The notes beneath the pieces are model-generated. The model was not told the DNA's origin. It saw only the letters and a list, made by a program, of their open reading frames with translations, and searched no databases. A stretch of 64,000 nucleotides of DNA from Rhizobium leguminosarum bv. trifolii WSM1325. GTDB lineage: Bacteria; Pseudomonadota; Alphaproteobacteria; Rhizobiales; Rhizobiaceae. This document shows, piece by piece, positions 53,774 to 64,000 of the stretch (its first letter is position 1; every line of letters starts with the position of its first letter). Position numbers and translations under genes: made by a program. The DNA lies in contig CP001622.1 in assembly GCA_000023185.1 (NCBI GenBank), positions 4,006,501 to 4,070,500 of the forward strand. Reading direction: 5' to 3'.

Positions 53774-54838
53774 TTATCGCGCGAAGAGGACGCATGCCTC
53801 GGGCGGAATGGAAACGCTGATCTCCTGCCCCCGAGCGAAGGCTATGTCTGGACGGTTAGGGCAAGCCGAGATTATCCGGTCGCCACTGACGAGGTCCAGA
53901 ACGACATGCCTGAAGGCACCGAGTGTCACGACGTCGGCAACGCGTCCGGTCATGGCTCCGGCAGCCGGAGCGCCGGACGATATCTCGACGCTTTCCGGCC
54001 TCACGCAAATCTCGGCGGCACCTGAAAGATTTGCCGTGGACGCGACCGGAAACTCCCAGCCGGATTCGGAGCGAAATTTGCGGGCCGTTCCGCCCGCGGC
54101 CGAAATCGAGCCATGAATCCAATTCGTCCGACCCATGAAATCCGCGACGAAACGTGAGTCTGGACGCCAATACACATCATCCGGCTTGCCGGATTGCATG
54201 ATTGCCCCGCGGTTCATCACGAAGATACGCTCTCCCAGGCTCATCGCCTCCTCCTGGTCGTGGGTTACCACGATTGCGGTCGAGCCGACCGCGGCGAGCA
54301 CATCCTTCAATTCGGTGCGCAGCTCATGCCGAAGCTTGGCGTCGAGGGCCGACAGAGGTTCATCCAGAAGAACGAGGCTCGGATGGGTGGCGAGCGCCCG
54401 CGCAAGCGCAACACGCTGCTGCTGTCCGCCGCTCAACTGGTGCGGCCGCCGCTGTCCGAAACCGACGAGCCGGACGAGCTCAAGCATCTCGGCAATGCGG
54501 CGCGGTATTTGCCCCGGCGGATGGTTGCGATGGCGAAGTCCGTAACCGATGTTCTGTTCGACTGTCATATGCGGGAAAAGAGCGTAGTGCTGGAACAGCA
54601 GCCCGACATTGCGCTCATAGGGTTTCAATCCGGCCATCGGCTCGCCGTCGATCAGGATCGAGCCTTTGTCGGGCCGCTCGAATCCGGCAATGAGCCGAAG
54701 AATGGTGGTCTTGCCGCAGCCGCTCGGTCCAAGCAGTGCGATTGTTTCACCTGGGTTCACAGAGAAGGAGATATCACCGAGGGCGACGGTTTCGCCGAAG
54801 CGCTTGCTGACCCCTTGAAATTCCACGGCAGAAATCAT
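53774..54838 (-). CDS. ABC transporter ATP-binding protein (PotA/FbpC-like)
   Basis: A 354-aa ATPase of the spermidine/putrescine-iron type. Walker A GPSGCGKTTILRL, Q-loop LLFQHYALFPHMTVEQN, signature LSGGQQQRVALARAL, Walker B LVLLDEPLSALDAKLR and VVTHDQEEAMSLGERIFV are followed by a C-terminal TOBE domain (about residues 245-350). MISAVEFQGVSKRFG is taken as start because GAGGA lies eight bases upstream. It is the last gene of the four-gene importer operon. Confidence 0.9.
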   Translation of the reverse strand: MISAVEFQGVSKRFGETVALGDISFSVNPGETIALLGPSGCGKTTILRLIAGFERPDKGSILIDGEPMAGLKPYERNVGLLFQHYALFPHMTVEQNIGYGLRHRNHPPGQIPRRIAEMLELVRLVGFGQRRPHQLSGGQQQRVALARALATHPSLVLLDEPLSALDAKLRHELRTELKDVLAAVGSTAIVVTHDQEEAMSLGERIFVMNRGAIMQSGKPDDVYWRPDSRFVADFMGRTNWIHGSISAAGGTARKFRSESGWEFPVASTANLSGAAEICVRPESVEISSGAPAAGAMTGRVADVVTLGAFRHVVLDLVSGDRIISACPNRPDIAFARGQEISVSIPPEACVLFAR

Positions 54839-54848
54839 CGTATTGTCC

Positions 54849-55688
54849 TCATGAACGAAACAAACCTTGGCCCACGACAGTGTCAAAGCCGACGACACGG
54901 TCCAGCACGACGATCAGCAACGCAGTGACGGCAATCAGGACCACGGCCGCCGCAGCGATCGTCAGATCGAAAGCCGCGCGCATGTTGCTGACCAGCGTAA
55001 CAGGCAAGGTCGTTGCGGACGGATCGCTCAGAAACAGACTGATCGATACGTCATCCATCGAAATTGCGAAGGCGAAGATCGCGCCGGTGACGACGCCCGT
55101 CCGCATGAGCGGCAGGGTTATGGTCCAGAAGGCCTGGCGCTCGGTGGCGCCGAGAACCATTGCGGCTTCCGTCAATCGTTGGTCGCTGCCGAGAAGGCTG
55201 GCGAGACTGGTCCTTATGCAATAGGGCAACGTCACGATCACGTGGCCGAGCAGCAGGCGCGCCATACCATTTGTGATGCCGGCCTTGGAAAGGAAAAGCA
55301 GCAGGCCGAATCCAATGACAACCGGCGGGACGATGAGCGGCGAGAGAAAGGCCGAAGTCAGCGCTGCCTTTCCTGGAAAATTGCCCCGGGCAAGACCCAC
55401 AGCCGCCGCAGTTCCAATCGTGACGGACAGAACCGTCGTGAGTACCGCCAAGATGAGGCTGGTGCGCAGGCTGGTAAGGATATCCGCCTGGGAGACGAGC
55501 CGTTCGAACCAGTGAAGCGACAAGGCAGGTGGCGGCATCGGGCCGAGGTAGGTCCTGGCGTCGAAAGCCATGACGCATGTTATCACCAACGGGATGGCGA
55601 GGAACGCCAATCCAAGGCCGATGACACCGTAGGCAAGGGAACCGGCGATCCGGTCTCCGGTTCTCGCGGCAAGAGACTGCATGCTCAT
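54849..55688 (-). CDS. ABC transporter permease (PotC-like)
   Basis: A 279-aa permease with six hydrophobic segments and the cytoplasmic loop LTEAAMVLGATERQAFWTITLPLMRTG. The long upstream open frame is not coding in this frame; the start at 55688 overlaps the stop of the PotB-like gene by ATGA. It follows the family pattern for the second channel subunit of a polyamine-type importer. Confidence 0.9.
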   Translation of the reverse strand: MSMQSLAARTGDRIAGSLAYGVIGLGLAFLAIPLVITCVMAFDARTYLGPMPPPALSLHWFERLVSQADILTSLRTSLILAVLTTVLSVTIGTAAAVGLARGNFPGKAALTSAFLSPLIVPPVVIGFGLLLFLSKAGITNGMARLLLGHVIVTLPYCIRTSLASLLGSDQRLTEAAMVLGATERQAFWTITLPLMRTGVVTGAIFAFAISMDDVSISLFLSDPSATTLPVTLVSNMRAAFDLTIAAAAVVLIAVTALLIVVLDRVVGFDTVVGQGLFRS

Positions 55689-56569
55689 CGGGAAACCCTC
55701 CGCGCCTGCGCAAACGTTATGACAGCGACGACCGCCAAGGCCGCGGCAAGCATGACGAGCGAGATCGCCGCACCGCTCGGGTAGTTGGCGATATCGCTGA
55801 ACCGGGTGTAGATGACATTCGACATGAAAAGCACCCGGCCCCTCCCGAGCACCATGGGAATGACGAAGGCGCTGATCGCAAAAGTCAGCGACACGAGCGT
55901 GCTTGAGATCAGAGCCGGGAAGCTCAGGGGAAGCGTGATCGACAGATGGGCTTTCCATCCCGGCGCGCCGAGCGACTGGGCCGCATCGAGCAGACGCGGA
56001 TCGATCGATTGCATCGCGCCAATCAGCGTTAGCGTTGCGACCGGTATGATCGAGTGAACCAGACCCGCAATAACGACGATATTAATATATTCGCGGCTGT
56101 TGGGCGAAAGGCCCAGCGTCAAGAGGAAGGGTCGGAAGATGCCGACCGACCCGAAGGTCAGTTCGATCGCATACGTCTTGATCAGGACGCTGGAAAGAAC
56201 AAGCGTAATCAAGAAGCCGAGGGTGAGCGTGCGCATCCGCGGCGAAATCCGCCGCACGGTGAAATAGGCCAGCGGGAATGCCACAAGCTGGCCGATGATC
56301 GCGGCAACTCCTCCAATCCAGAAGGTCGTCAGCAGGACGCTTGCAAACGCCTGGTTTGCAAGCTCGTAATAGTTTTGAACCGTTGCCGCGGCATTTTCCA
56401 CGGAGCCGACACGCCCCGGCGTAAACTCCTTCAAGCTTTCGATTGCCAGATTGATGAGCGGTGACAGAAAACCGAATGCGAACACCAGCAGGGCTGGCCC
56501 GAGCGTCAGGGCAGCATCTCGGCGATCCGGAATTGAAATGGCGACGGGTTGCCGCCTTACCTTAGTCAT
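55685..56569 (-). CDS. ABC transporter permease (PotB-like)
   Basis: A 294-aa inner-membrane permease with six hydrophobic segments, first at about residues 21-42 (TLGPALLVFAFGFLSPLINLAI). The coupling loop is LLDAAQSLGAPGWKAHLSITLPLSFP. It is followed by the PotC-like gene with ATGA overlap. The substrate is likely a polyamine or related cation, inferred from the binding protein and the divergent agmatinase-family gene. Confidence 0.9.
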   Translation of the reverse strand: MTKVRRQPVAISIPDRRDAALTLGPALLVFAFGFLSPLINLAIESLKEFTPGRVGSVENAAATVQNYYELANQAFASVLLTTFWIGGVAAIIGQLVAFPLAYFTVRRISPRMRTLTLGFLITLVLSSVLIKTYAIELTFGSVGIFRPFLLTLGLSPNSREYINIVVIAGLVHSIIPVATLTLIGAMQSIDPRLLDAAQSLGAPGWKAHLSITLPLSFPALISSTLVSLTFAISAFVIPMVLGRGRVLFMSNVIYTRFSDIANYPSGAAISLVMLAAALAVVAVITFAQARRVSR

Positions 56570-56657
56570 GATGGAACAGCCTTTTCCTCGCCCTTGCGGG
56601 CCATGAGAAAGGGAGGTTGTCGAAGCCCGCGCCTACGACAACCTGCCGCGAGGTGTC

Positions 56658-57734
56658 TTAGAGCAACGGGGCGATATCCTGCTCCCAGCGCTTGGACCAG
56701 GCATCCTGCTGTTCGAGAACGACATTGTAGTCCGGCACATAGACGAAGCTCGAAAACTCGTCCGACGTGAAGGACAGATGCTTGAGATTGTCGGGTGTGA
56801 CCGCCTTGCTGTTCAACGGCGCTTCGCCAGCCACCTTGGCGTAGAGCGAGTTCATGTCCGGGCTGATCGCGAAGTTGACGAAATCGAGCGTTGCCTTGGT
56901 GCTTGGCCTATTCTTCAGGACGCCGAAACCGCTCTGGTAGAGGAAGGCCTTGAAGTTGCTGTCCTTGGTGAAACGCGTAACCGGGAAGTTTTTGGCCACC
57001 GCCGCCCAGCCGGGCTCGGCGAAGAAGCCGACGGAGGTCTCGCCCGACGTCAGCGAATTGGTGAAATCGATATCGGTGACGGCAACGCGGCCGATATTGC
57101 CGGATTTCGCCAATTCCGTCATGAGCTTCCACCCGGGCTCCATATTCGTTTCACTGCCGCCGGCGTGAAGGGCGAGCGCGACGATCTGGAGCATCATGCT
57201 CTGTGTCGGGCCTGGCCAGCAGATCGCGCCCTTGAGATCGGGGCTCAGCAGATCATCGATGGTCTTCACGGTGATCGGAGCCGTGTCGGTTCGCGCACCG
57301 AAATACATGCCGCCAACTGCGCGCGGGACGGCTTTGATATTGCCCTTGCCGTCACGAATGATGATTTTCTCGGGAATATTCGCAAGGTTGGGAACATCTG
57401 CAGGATTGATGGTCTCGAGCCAATCCTCCTTCACCATGCTGTTGAACGAGCCTTCCCAGCCGGCGACATAGTCGTAGTCGACATTCGGCCAGACGGCCTT
57501 GATCTTCGGCAGGATGGCGCCCGCGCCGCCCTGGTGAAGAACCCAGTTGAATGTCGCCGCATTCTGGTCGGCGGCAATCTGCTTCATCGCTTCGACGACA
57601 TCGCCGCCCCATTCGACGGCGGTGAGATTGCCGCTACCGGCTGCGGCGGATCTTGCAAACCCGGTCATCGTGCTGGCAATCCCCGCGGCGGCGGCGGATC
57701 CGAGGAAGCGGCGGCGTGTCATATCGTGCAACAT
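56658..57734 (-). CDS. Extracellular solute-binding protein, polyamine/putrescine type
   Basis: A 358-aa exported binding protein with a twin-arginine-like leader (MTRRRFLGSAAAAGIASTMTGFARSAAA). The body matches the SBP_bac_8/PotD-like group: VVEAMKQIAADQNAATFNWVLHQGG, the DYVAGWEGSFNSMVKEDWLETINPADVPNL segment and AICWPGPTQSMMLQIVALAL. AAAGGGAA supports the first ATG. It leads the four-gene operon and is divergent from the ureohydrolase gene, consistent with a polyamine or guanidino substrate. Confidence 0.88.
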   Translation of the reverse strand: MLHDMTRRRFLGSAAAAGIASTMTGFARSAAAGSGNLTAVEWGGDVVEAMKQIAADQNAATFNWVLHQGGAGAILPKIKAVWPNVDYDYVAGWEGSFNSMVKEDWLETINPADVPNLANIPEKIIIRDGKGNIKAVPRAVGGMYFGARTDTAPITVKTIDDLLSPDLKGAICWPGPTQSMMLQIVALALHAGGSETNMEPGWKLMTELAKSGNIGRVAVTDIDFTNSLTSGETSVGFFAEPGWAAVAKNFPVTRFTKDSNFKAFLYQSGFGVLKNRPSTKATLDFVNFAISPDMNSLYAKVAGEAPLNSKAVTPDNLKHLSFTSDEFSSFVYVPDYNVVLEQQDAWSKRWEQDIAPLL

Positions 57735-57995
57735 GGTAGGTTCCCTTTGCTGTCGGCCCTCTGCCGGGCCGTTCGCATCGGAGACTGCTTGGAGGTTGCC
57801 AGCCGCGGTAGTGGGAAAATTCTCGCCGGGTTATAAAGTTTTCTGAACATCCCGATGAACGAGCTACCCGCATCGCTGAGCCTCGGCGGATCTGAGCTAT
57901 CAAGAATCGTTATATCCCCTCTCGAATTTTCGCGGTTCCAAGAGAAGTGGGCGGCGCTGATGATGATGGCAGCATCAATACCGTGGGAGCCTGCC
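57735..57995. promoter_or_regulatory. Divergent regulatory region, polyamine-type importer and ureohydrolase
   Basis: About 260 bp between the importer leader gene and the preferred start of the agmatinase-family gene. AT-rich segments near 57830-57940 suit promoters; no specific operator was recognised. Confidence 0.4.
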
Positions 57996-59057
57996 TTGAC
58001 CATTGACCGGGATTTTCTGGAAGACTTGAGAAAGCGCTTCGGCAGCGCTGCAGGCGGGGAGATGGAAGATCCGCACTTCCGCGCCGTGGCGGCGAGCGTA
58101 TTCAAGGACGGCGACAGCCGCAAATGGCCCTTCGCCGATCCTGCGACCTTTCTGGATGCCCGTTTCATCGAGAACGGCTTGCGGCCCGAGGTGCTTGAGG
58201 CGCTTGACGTGGCTCTGATCGGCGTGCCGATGGACCTCGGCGTCACCAATCGCGCCGGCGCGCGGCTGGGGCCGCGGGCCGTCCGGGCGATCGAGCGTAT
58301 CGGTCCCTACGAGCATGTTCTGCGTGTCGCGCCGATGGGAGGGCTAAAGGTCGCCGATGTCGGCGACGTGCCGATGCGCAGCCGGTTCGGCCTCGCCGAG
58401 TGCCATGCCGACATCGAGGCCTGCTACCGGATGATCGCGGCAACCGGGGTTATCCCGCTGTCGGTCGGCGGCGACCATTCGATCTCCGGCGCCATCCTCA
58501 AGGGCCTGGCGGCCGGCCAGCCGGTCGGCATGATCCACATCGACGCTCATTGCGACACCGCTGGTCCCTATGAGGGCTCGAAGTTCCATCACGGCGCGCC
58601 CTTCCGCGAGGCGGTTCTGGCGGGCGTGCTCGATCCGAAGCGTACGATCCAGATCGGCATCCGCGGCGGCGGCGAATATCTCTGGGAGTTCTCCTTTGTC
58701 TCCGGCATGACCGTCATCCACGCCGAAGAGGTGGCGGAGATGGGCCTCAAGGCTGTGATCGCAAAGGCTCTAGAGGTTGTCGGCGCCGGTCCGACCTATC
58801 TCAGTTTCGACGTCGACAGCCTCGATCCGGCCTTCGCTCCGGGAACCGGCACGCCGGAAGTCGGCGGGCTTCAGCCGAGGGAGGCCCTGACCCTGCTGCG
58901 CGGCTTCAAAGGCATCAACCTCATCGGCGGCGACGTCGTGGAAATCGCGCCGCAATACGACAACACCACCAACACCGCGCAGATCGCCGCGCAGGTCCTG
59001 TTCGAACTCCTGTGCCTCGCGATGTTCAGTCCCGCGGTCAGGACAAAGCTGACCTGA
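57996..59057 (+). CDS. Ureohydrolase, agmatinase/guanidinobutyrase family
   Basis: This roughly 353-aa manganese enzyme hydrolyses a guanidino compound to urea and an amine or amino acid. The metal ligands are present in SVGGDHSIS, IHIDAHCDTAG and FDVDSLDPAFAPGTGTPE. Agmatine, guanidinobutyrate and related substrates cannot be separated by sequence here. A TTG start at 57996 is preferred because GGGAG lies six bases upstream; an ATG at 57855 would add 47 residues without family similarity. It faces the polyamine-type importer and precedes an amino-acid ABC system. Confidence 0.82.
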   Translation: MTIDRDFLEDLRKRFGSAAGGEMEDPHFRAVAASVFKDGDSRKWPFADPATFLDARFIENGLRPEVLEALDVALIGVPMDLGVTNRAGARLGPRAVRAIERIGPYEHVLRVAPMGGLKVADVGDVPMRSRFGLAECHADIEACYRMIAATGVIPLSVGGDHSISGAILKGLAAGQPVGMIHIDAHCDTAGPYEGSKFHHGAPFREAVLAGVLDPKRTIQIGIRGGGEYLWEFSFVSGMTVIHAEEVAEMGLKAVIAKALEVVGAGPTYLSFDVDSLDPAFAPGTGTPEVGGLQPREALTLLRGFKGINLIGGDVVEIAPQYDNTTNTAQIAAQVLFELLCLAMFSPAVRTKLT

Positions 59058-61553: not shown

Positions 61554-62525
61554 ATGACCGACACACAAATCCGTATTCTCGATGCCCGGACAACGGGCGA
61601 GCTTCTCCCTTTCGGCCCACTGGTCGCGACCCTGCGGCAAGCATTTGCCGAAGGCTGTGTCGTGCCGGTACGGCATCACCACACGATAGCCAATAGCGGT
61701 GAGCCGGATGCGACGCTGCTTCTGATGCCGGCCTGGCATGAAACGCACCGGCCGGAGCGCTACCTTGGCATCAAGATCGTCACCGTCTTTCCCGGCAACA
61801 CGGTGCGCGGCATTCCCGGTTTGACCTCGACTTACATGCTCTATGATGGCCGGACCGGGATGCAGCTTGCGCTCCTTGACGGAAACACGATCACAGCGCG
61901 CCGTACGGTAGCGGCATCGGCCCTTGCCGCGGACTATCTTGCTCGAAAAGACGCCCGCCGCCTGCTGGTGATCGGCGCAGGCCGCGTCGCGAGCCTCATA
62001 CCCGATGCCTACCGCGCCGTCCGGCCGATCGCGCATGTCGATATCTGGGATATCGATCCCGCCAGCGCCGAACGGCTGGCGCAGAGCCTCCGGCAACAAG
62101 GGCTCCAGGTCGCTGCCGTCACGGATCTGGAAGCAGCAGTGCGGCAAGCCGATATCGTCAGCGCAGCGACGCTGGCGACAGCACCGCTTATCCGCGGCGA
62201 ATGGCTGCGGCCGGGCACCCATGTCGATCTGATCGGCGGCTTCACCCCGGCGATGCGCGAGGCCGATGACGAGGCGCTTCGGCGCTCCTCGGTCTATATC
62301 GATACGCACGAAGCCCTTCACGAAGCAGGCGATCTGGTTCAGCCGATCGGGGCCCGCGTCATTTCCGCAGATGCGGTGCGTGCGACACTCGACGAGCTGT
62401 GCCGCCGGGATGTTCCAGCGCGGACGTCCAACGATGAGATCACTCTCTACAAGGCAGTCGGAACGGCGTTGGCCGATCTTGCCGCCGCGACAATGGTGTA
62501 TGAGGCAGTCTTGATCGCAGGCTGA
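61554..62525 (+). CDS. Ornithine cyclodeaminase / mu-crystallin family protein
   Basis: A 323-aa NAD(P)-binding protein of the OCD family. The substrate domain has GIKIVTVFPGN, GLTSTYMLYDGRTGMQLALLDGNTITARRTVAASALAADYLAR, the cofactor motif LLVIGAGRVASLIPDAYRA (about 137-155) and the DLIGGFTPAMREADDEAL segment with the catalytic aspartate. Members convert ornithine to proline or reduce cyclic imino acids, so the exact reaction is open. MTDTQIRILD is used as start; upstream in-frame codons lack family similarity. It follows the amino-acid permeases. Confidence 0.87.
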   Translation: MTDTQIRILDARTTGELLPFGPLVATLRQAFAEGCVVPVRHHHTIANSGEPDATLLLMPAWHETHRPERYLGIKIVTVFPGNTVRGIPGLTSTYMLYDGRTGMQLALLDGNTITARRTVAASALAADYLARKDARRLLVIGAGRVASLIPDAYRAVRPIAHVDIWDIDPASAERLAQSLRQQGLQVAAVTDLEAAVRQADIVSAATLATAPLIRGEWLRPGTHVDLIGGFTPAMREADDEALRRSSVYIDTHEALHEAGDLVQPIGARVISADAVRATLDELCRRDVPARTSNDEITLYKAVGTALADLAAATMVYEAVLIAG

Positions 62526-62612: not shown

Positions 62613-64000
62613 GTGCAAATCCGATACAGACCCGCAGTGATTACAAATCCGCCGCGCATCGAAATCCAGCAACTGGCCCATTTCGTGCTGGCCTGTCAGA
62701 GCCCGACGCTGGCAGAGACCGCGCGCGAGCTTGGGATTGCTCCTTCGGCGCTGACATCAAGTCTGCGTACTTTGGAAAATGAACTTCAACTCAAGCTCTT
62801 CATTCGGAAAAGCGGTCACCTCAGTCCTTTACCGGCAGCCTTCTGGCTGTTTCAGCAGGCAACGGCCATCCTTCATCGCGAAAGGTTCGTGCGTCGGATG
62901 CGGAACGGGGACACGGACCATCTTCGCATCAATATTCGCCTCGATCTCAGTTTCTCCATCGGCCGGTTTTCGAAGGCGATCGGACGTACCGTCGAAGATA
63001 TGGAACGCGAGCGGCCCGACCTGCTGATCGACGTGATGTTTGCAGACGCACGAGGAAAATCCCTTGTTGAAGAGGGGGCCGCGGAAATCCCGGGCAACAC
63101 GGGTTCGATGGAAATCGAAGTCGGCTATGTGACTGGCGTGCCATCCGCGAACCTGCCTACGATGACGCCCTTCTACGATGAGGTCTGGTTTTCCGTCGGA
63201 ACGGCGGAGGCCGCGGTTGATCTTCGCTCCCCCAATCAGAAATTTGTCGTTTTGAAAATGCGTCAGGCGCTTCGCGATGCCGTCACCCGATATGCGGACG
63301 AGCATGGCATCCGCGACCGCATGATCCTGATGGATGAGGAGCCGGCAGACCTTCATCGGCTGCTCAACGAGTTTCCGCAAATGCGATTCCTGATGCCCCG
63401 CAGTATGGTCGCCGACCGGCTCGGACTTGCGCGCCTGCATCTGGAGCCCCTCGATCCGCCGTTGTCGAGCACCTTGGGCGTGCGCGCAAACAGGCCGGAC
63501 CAGGAGGTCGTGTCCGCCCTGCTTTGTAACCTCAAGAAAAATCTGGAGGCAACGGAGGCCAATATCGTCTTCCGGCCGCAGTTGACGGCACGTCAATTGC
63601 ACTACTTCAACCTTGCGCATCTCAGCGGAGGTATTTCGGCGGCGGCGCGCGCGGCGCATATCACGCAACCTTCCGTTTCGACGCAGATTCAGAAGATCGA
63701 GGCAGTTGTCGGGCAACCCCTGTTCGAACGGCGGCGCAACGGTGCCGAGAGCACGAAGGCCGGCAAGGCATTGCTTCCCTTCACCCTGGAGATCGAAGAG
63801 CGCATCGATAGCCTCCTTCGGGCCAGTCTGGATATTGCCGCCCACACACAGGCGACCATCTCGATCGGCATGCTGCCGAGTTCGGGGCATGATAGCGTCA
63901 TGACGGACAAGGTGGCGCAGGCGCTGACGGCAACCCGCCTTGGCCATCCCGAATACCGGCTGAGAATCATAGAAGGTTCCAACGCTGCGCTTCACGACCA
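62613..64000 (+). CDS. Tandem LysR-type regulator with two DNA-binding domains (partial)
   Basis: One uninterrupted frame, open to the end of the window, encodes two LysR N-termini in series. The first winged helix is QQLAHFVLACQSPTLAETARELGIAPSALTSSLRTLENELQLKLF (about 62664-62799). A weakly conserved effector-like region follows (about 62900-63540). A second winged helix is LTARQLHYFNLAHLSGGISAAARAAHITQPSVSTQIQKIEAVVGQPLFERR (about 63582-63735), then the start of a second effector domain (ISIGMLPSSGHDS). GTG at 62613 has GGGTAA upstream; GTG at 62637 is an alternative. It probably regulates the neighbouring amino-acid/ureohydrolase genes. Confidence 0.8.
   Translation, partial: MQIRYRPAVITNPPRIEIQQLAHFVLACQSPTLAETARELGIAPSALTSSLRTLENELQLKLFIRKSGHLSPLPAAFWLFQQATAILHRERFVRRMRNGDTDHLRINIRLDLSFSIGRFSKAIGRTVEDMERERPDLLIDVMFADARGKSLVEEGAAEIPGNTGSMEIEVGYVTGVPSANLPTMTPFYDEVWFSVGTAEAAVDLRSPNQKFVVLKMRQALRDAVTRYADEHGIRDRMILMDEEPADLHRLLNEFPQMRFLMPRSMVADRLGLARLHLEPLDPPLSSTLGVRANRPDQEVVSALLCNLKKNLEATEANIVFRPQLTARQLHYFNLAHLSGGISAAARAAHITQPSVSTQIQKIEAVVGQPLFERRRNGAESTKAGKALLPFTLEIEERIDSLLRASLDIAAHTQATISIGMLPSSGHDSVMTDKVAQALTATRLGHPEYRLRIIEGSNAALHD

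Follow-up and report, generated by a model that had tools for sequence, protein, structure and literature searches.

In this study, we have described a gene at the end of a 64,000-nucleotide stretch of Rhizobium leguminosarum bv. trifolii WSM1325 DNA (hereafter the window; contig CP001622.1, G000:C1:4006501-4070500 in its own genome) that joins two LysR units in a single chain, likely of 616 residues, unlike the LysR norm of one unit in about 300. As judged by sequence, this double LysR belongs to a real, conserved family of tandem regulators, with a fold of known type in a two-unit form. It probably acts as a single-chain, dedicated local activator of the ubiD-led catabolic gene set that begins 157 bp downstream and that, judging by the neighbouring enzymes alone, probably breaks down an imidazole compound of the histidine or ergothioneine type. 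A more far-reaching proposal, which we put forward only tentatively, is that of a covalent, unequal LysR pair that reads a directional site (CTAT repeats 26 bp apart and, mostly, TTC repeats 22 bp apart) rather than the usual dyad. Two chains would then stand in for the tetramer, one of the effector domains, once a sensor, would now act as a scaffold, and the pair would control a UbiD (prenylated-flavin) pathway, so far undescribed, for a histidine-/ergothioneine-type compound.

A search of 5.8 billion proteins, with 7,997 candidates scored, gave 74 matches, 70 of which align over both halves. These full-length homologues have 575 to 686 residues, are 29-97% identical in the alignment (A1, which leaves out P0061, P0072, P0073 and P0074 of the 74) and come from sources including Rhizobium, Agrobacterium, Martelella, Devosia, Prosthecomicrobium, Radicibacter and Flavisphingomonas. 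The single frame with two LysR units reported in a preliminary description of this DNA is thus a true fusion, and its homologues are not separate genes. Among sampled genomes (all counts include the window's own), the double LysR is present in 11 of 297 in the family, 2 of 385 in the class and 1 of 398 in the phylum; in the order, 7 of 397 have a full-length match, a figure that rises to 28 of 397 if single LysR genes matching the second half alone are included.

On the forward strand, the frame from GTG 62613 has no stop for 462 codons, up to the window end. Extended in the same genome, it closes after 624 codons at G000:C1:4070987, 487 bases beyond the window, in keeping with the uninterrupted run of at least 462 codons noted previously. 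The GTG at 62613 is out of frame in three of four Rhizobium relatives (R. johnstonii 3841, Rhizobium sp. WYCCWR10014 and R. leguminosarum USDA 2370), in which the stretch 62613-62637 is one base shorter, and is altered in the fourth (R. ruizarguesonis UPM1133), while GTG 62637 is common to all four; the latter is therefore the likely start. Protein identity to these relatives is 95.8-96.8%. The frame and interior coordinates of one further locus (L033 of genome G049) are not usable in this comparison. The features are as follows, with residues counted from GTG 62613:

62637..64000, + strand: double LysR gene, running off the window and ending at G000:C1:4070987 (frame, start comparison, homologues)
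62613..62636, + strand: in-frame extension from GTG 62613, probably untranslated (frame comparison with four relatives)
62664..62837, + strand: first winged helix-turn-helix, residues 18-75 (Pfam HTH_1, nonsynonymous substitution rate (dN), models)
62832..62897, + strand: first linker helix, 22 residues (74-95), shorter than the second (model)
62919..63548, + strand: first effector (regulatory) domain, residues 103-312 (fold in models, no Pfam match)
63549..63587, + strand: junction of the two LysR units, residues 313-325 (model)
63591..63767, + strand: second winged helix-turn-helix, residues 327-385 (Pfam HTH_1)
63756..63848, + strand: second linker helix, 31 residues (382-412) (model)
63849..64000, + strand: start of the second effector domain, residues 413-619, most of it beyond the window (Pfam)
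61554..62525, + strand: ornithine-cyclodeaminase-like gene, last of the ureohydrolase/importer run (named by eye)
G000:C1:4071042-4071072, between the regulator and ubiD, beyond the window: candidate operator (conserved element)

Both helix-turn-helices are recognised by Pfam HTH_1 (cut-off 26.6 bits), with 39.9 bits for the first when the N-terminal half is scanned alone and 57.8 bits for the second when the C-terminal half is, and they lie about 310 residues apart, as first described. A domain search for two LysR_substrate matches had also been suggested; there is only one, at residues 413-619 (90.4 bits), and the first half scanned alone gives no effector-domain match in Pfam at expectation values (E) up to 1. 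The description of the first effector region as clearly degenerate is accurate as regards this missing match, but not as regards the fold, which stays LysR-type in models, also when folded alone, nor the ratio of nonsynonymous to synonymous substitution rates (dN/dS about 0.24-0.31), which indicates purifying selection. The two-lobed effector domain is thus identified by Pfam in the second half and by fold alone in the first. Sequence or models establish the purifying selection on, and the fold of, both halves, as they do the fusion and its conservation.

The first half may act in dimerisation or sensing, as put forward in the preliminary description. One alternative, to which we give a minor but appreciable weight, is that each effector domain binds its own ligand, two signals being integrated on one promoter. 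The retained fold and the purifying selection would agree with such a double sensor, and so would the conserved stretch LDLSFxIGRxSKA, located where LysR proteins often bind their ligand. Against it, the first domain lacks the Pfam match and is much less conserved (20% of positions over 3 bits, compared with 50% in the second), and its model contains a low-confidence stretch (residues 147-155, predicted local distance difference test score below 50) where the second domain has a helix and a strand in the first lobe. The weaker conservation and the absent Pfam match could also mean that the first half is a decaying passenger and that the second LysR unit works alone. This is improbable, since the two helix-turn-helices are equally conserved (2.94 bits for the first, 2.89 for the second), the first shows a dN of 0 against the four Rhizobium relatives, and 70 homologues retain the first half at identities as low as 29%. 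The passenger explanation draws some support from P0077, a protein of unplaced context with the second half only.

P0077 came from searches with a profile of each half (13 rows each), which reach proteins of 0.55-1.75 times the query length only. The second-half profile finds 14 proteins at E 1e-20 or better, namely truncated doubles, fragments, four generic LysR proteins at 26-27% identity and P0077. The latter has 279 residues, is 56% identical, begins inside the helix-turn-helix on a 266 kb contig, and may be broken, misread or a true single copy. The first-half profile finds 25 proteins, one being a double fragment on an 880-base contig (E 1e-55) and the other 24 generic LysR proteins whose E is 6e-9 at best; apart from the doubtful P0077, neither search thus reveals a clear intact stand-alone half. 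In a tree with 60 single LysR rows, picked among matches, many of them to the second half (10 of 70 rows, outside 250-400 residues, are left out), the first halves (nine) and the second halves (nine) fall into two separate groups, each with a support of 99. The second halves are placed among single LysR proteins and the first halves elsewhere, which fits one fusion followed by common descent. A recent self-duplication is rejected, the halves being 14% identical in the profile alignment and not neighbours in the tree. The partners would have been either two different LysR genes or ancient duplicates, the latter a borderline case, as forcing the two halves together as sisters gives an approximately unbiased test value (p-AU) of 0.0515 with 58 rows (20 of 78 are left out, 6 long-branched and 14 near-copies).

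The gene neighbourhood points to the downstream UbiD gene set, and not to the ureohydrolase/cyclodeaminase operon, as the conserved partner of the double LysR. Stretches of 7 to 40 kb from 22 genomes were compared by tblastn; a first calling, based on a crude criterion of G+C at the codon positions, overlooked some genes (UbiX in several loci and the regulator in L084), and the neighbours were therefore recounted. A UbiD decarboxylase gene accompanies the double LysR in 16 of the 22. The ureohydrolase, importer and cyclodeaminase genes of the preliminary description are physically present beside the regulator, but this arrangement was seen only in Rhizobium: cyclodeaminase-like and binding-protein genes adjoin the double LysR in 5 of 22 genomes, all of that genus, and tblastn places a ureohydrolase near it in four genomes. 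The ureohydrolase also lies in the window, at 57855-59057, outside the re-fetched stretch, beside genes named by eye as an ATP-binding cassette (ABC) importer (binding protein, two permeases and ATPase; 53774-57734, - strand). Regulation of this upstream operon by the double LysR is hence unlikely, and the functional link is not supported, in spite of the shared strand and of the 111 bp that separate the end of the cyclodeaminase-like gene (62525) from the likely start of the regulator.

In its own genome, the double LysR is followed by the single UbiD gene, ubiX, and genes for a substrate-binding protein, a phosphoenolpyruvate (PEP)-mutase/isocitrate-lyase-like enzyme, a permease and an ATPase, the importer being of the oligopeptide ABC type. 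A histidine-ammonia-lyase-like gene, 84% identical to that of G717, lies 1.8 kb past the ATPase, beyond a frame called on the other strand, and is perhaps its own transcription unit. Genes of the ErtD/ErtE type, related to ergothioneine degradation, occur near the double LysR in 11 of 22 genomes. Seven genomes with UbiD (G276, G161, G592, G519, G650, G589 and G717) also have lyase, ErtD-type and ErtE-type genes. G096, G284, G230 and G576, without UbiD, have homologues of thiourocanate hydratase, thiohydantoin desulfurase, ErtD and ErtE. In G049 (a 7.3-kb contig, without UbiD) there are only transporter, CoA-transferase and acyl-CoA dehydrogenase genes, as found beside UbiD in G152, G068 and G156, and in G639, where the gene is near a contig end and 12 kb were read, there is neither UbiD nor any ergothioneine-type neighbour. 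All four genes of G576 score above the NCBIfam cut-offs of these families, as do the hydratase of G284, the ErtD-type genes of G717 and G650 and the ErtE-type gene of G717. Four of five lyases pass the subfamily cut-off of histidine ammonia-lyase and fall 1 to 16 bits below the equivalog cut-off, and the fifth (G096) is far under both. Loci L039, L040, L079, L080, L081, L082 and L085, with the extensions L088-L092, hold histidine-ammonia-lyase-like, ErtD-/ErtE-type amidohydrolase, UbiD and UbiX genes and, in the stretch read, no thiourocanate hydratase or desulfurase; such a set perhaps encodes a novel route for an imidazole compound. A different gene set, with UbiD/UbiX, a tripartite ATP-independent periplasmic (TRAP) transporter, a CoA-transferase and acyl-CoA dehydrogenases, stands beside regulator relatives in L044, L045 and L046.

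Between the regulator and ubiD there is an element common to Rhizobium and Devosia enhydra, which is also found before ubiD in G650 and G589. A matrix built from these sites has its best match in the locus before ubiD in G519, G161 and G276 (weak in the last) and before the lyase in G096, G284 and G230 (close to a second match in the last). When one clade at a time was held out, each of nine sites from six clades ranked first in its locus and exceeded every position of the window, with scores of 16.8-33.6 compared with 9.8-12.1 for the best in the whole window, which further argues against control of the upstream operon. (Alignments A2 to A4 leave out genome G049 and the near-copies L035 and L036.) The regular part of the element is YTAT, 22 bases and CTAY, that is, two CTAT motifs 26 bp apart in the same orientation. 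It is present in 7 of 12 ubiD upstream regions, with one match for 17 other spacers together; across the same loci, and with the true sites counted in, it turns up 0.007 times per 420 bases of a single strand. Most ubiD sites also have two TTC repeats 22 bp apart. A -10-like hexamer follows the second repeat after 17 or 18 bases: CATAAT in G650, G589, G161 and G276, CATTAT in G717, GATACT in five Rhizobium and TATACT in the three lyase sites, being less good in Devosia and G519. In the whole own genome the pattern has one exact match; at three mismatches there are 8 further matches, compared with 6 for a reversed control. With its two spaced repeats, this conserved candidate operator would suit a protein that binds two half-sites at once, as first suggested.

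That a missed stop or frameshift has artificially joined two ordinary genes is hardly conceivable: there is no frameshift between the halves, the frame is open in its own and four further Rhizobium genomes, which with the full-length homologues (70 of 74) rules out a sequencing error, and the conservation of the protein among homologues rules out a chance open frame.

All together, we propose that the two helix-turn-helices would read the conserved operator, which would span positions of about -72 to -30 relative to the transcription start, its right-hand repeat taking the place of a -35 element. The second effector domain would sense a pathway metabolite and recruit or reposition RNA polymerase, with the first serving mainly as a structural partner. 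The two units would thus form a built-in unequal pair, and two chains could do the work of an ordinary LysR tetramer. In such an unequal pair the fusion would fix which helix-turn-helix reads which half of the operator, and therefore a directional site would be recognised.

Several points weigh against this proposal. The built-in pair is a guess, the models giving no contacts between chains; the second rather than the first effector domain was chosen as ligand sensor on conservation only; and we infer the DNA binding, activation, ligand and assembly of the double LysR. UbiD is missing from the stretch read in 6 of 22 genomes. The operator was first spotted by eye in four loci and tested afterwards; the G717 site, one of the seven with the regular pattern, was missed by the matrix and found by the pattern; the lyase sites of G096, G284 and G230 have no right-hand CTAY, and G519 has CTTC there. 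Matrix and pattern find no site in 7 of 22 genomes (G152, G068, G156, G049, G592, G576 and G639), and in G650 and G589 there is a weaker second site after the regulator gene (L081 about 8613, - strand; L082 about 10693, + strand; 24.4 bits with the full matrix). Finally, none of the sampled genomes of the window's genus has the gene (0 of 4 in the family sample, 0 of 5 in the order sample), while the four named Rhizobium carry it, so that the distribution is patchy.

Bacterial regulators of the LysR type form a very large family, whose members bind DNA as dimers or tetramers and respond to a small molecule; for the double LysR, the counterpart of this behaviour is a predicted operator. The division of binding and sensing among identical LysR subunits is an old question. 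A natural single-chain LysR with unequal units would allow each helix-turn-helix or effector domain to be disabled alone, which a homotetramer does not; the conserved candidate operator could serve directly as a test site, and the genes alongside suggest a decarboxylase-dependent pathway. In titles and abstract openings, from a search that most subscription journals fall outside, we found no description of a fused, tandem or double LysR protein, of a LysR regulator in connection with ergothioneine, or, for UbiD with ergothioneine or histidine ammonia-lyase, of such a pathway.

Among 116 HTH_1 matches in the own genome (150 of 239 candidates scored), just two frames hold two HTH_1 each. At G000:C4, open frame 653 had looked like another full double gene but is an ordinary LysR frame of 337 codons with one HTH_1. 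A second odd LysR frame (L086:1784-3004, + strand; G000:C1:148783-150003; 406 residues) also has two LysR helix-turn-helices, about 96 residues apart, but one effector domain only; it is matched at E 1e-60 or better in 50 of 100 relatives, all of the window's genus, two of the 50 having one stop.

As for ergothioneine utilisation, all four genes above the NCBIfam cut-offs stand next to a double LysR relative in G576, ErtD-/ErtE-type neighbours are found in 11 of 22 genomes, and hydratase and desulfurase accompany the double LysR in 4 of 22, not including its own genome, where it lies instead beside UbiD/UbiX. That genome also has an ergothioneine-degradation-type cluster elsewhere (L097:5909-13314, - strand; G000:C1 about 4.754-4.761 Mb). 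This cluster comprises an ErtD scoring above the cut-off (782.8 bits), homologues of the hydratase, the desulfurase and ErtE, and a distant lyase, and a single LysR frame lies close to it. Among named LysR regulators, the nearest NCBIfam models, matching mainly the second half, are PcaQ, CidR, GltC and NAC (110.2, 109.6, 99.1 and 89.0 bits), whose curated cut-offs (303.8, 415, 350 and 309) are far above these scores, so that the double LysR is not a member; among the best 25 of 29 NCBIfam matches at E 1e-10 or better, no named LysR subfamily, CynR included, reaches its cut-off. In structure, both halves resemble the full-length LysR-type regulators CcmR, CbnR, OxyR and BenM in their winged helix-turn-helix, linker helix and two-lobed effector domain, and the best Foldseek matches of both are full-length LysR-type regulators (probability 1.00). 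The proposed operator position (about -72 to -30) is also one that we take to be like that of LysR-type regulators. The double LysR is thus a variant within the LysR-type family, of a rare but conserved design.
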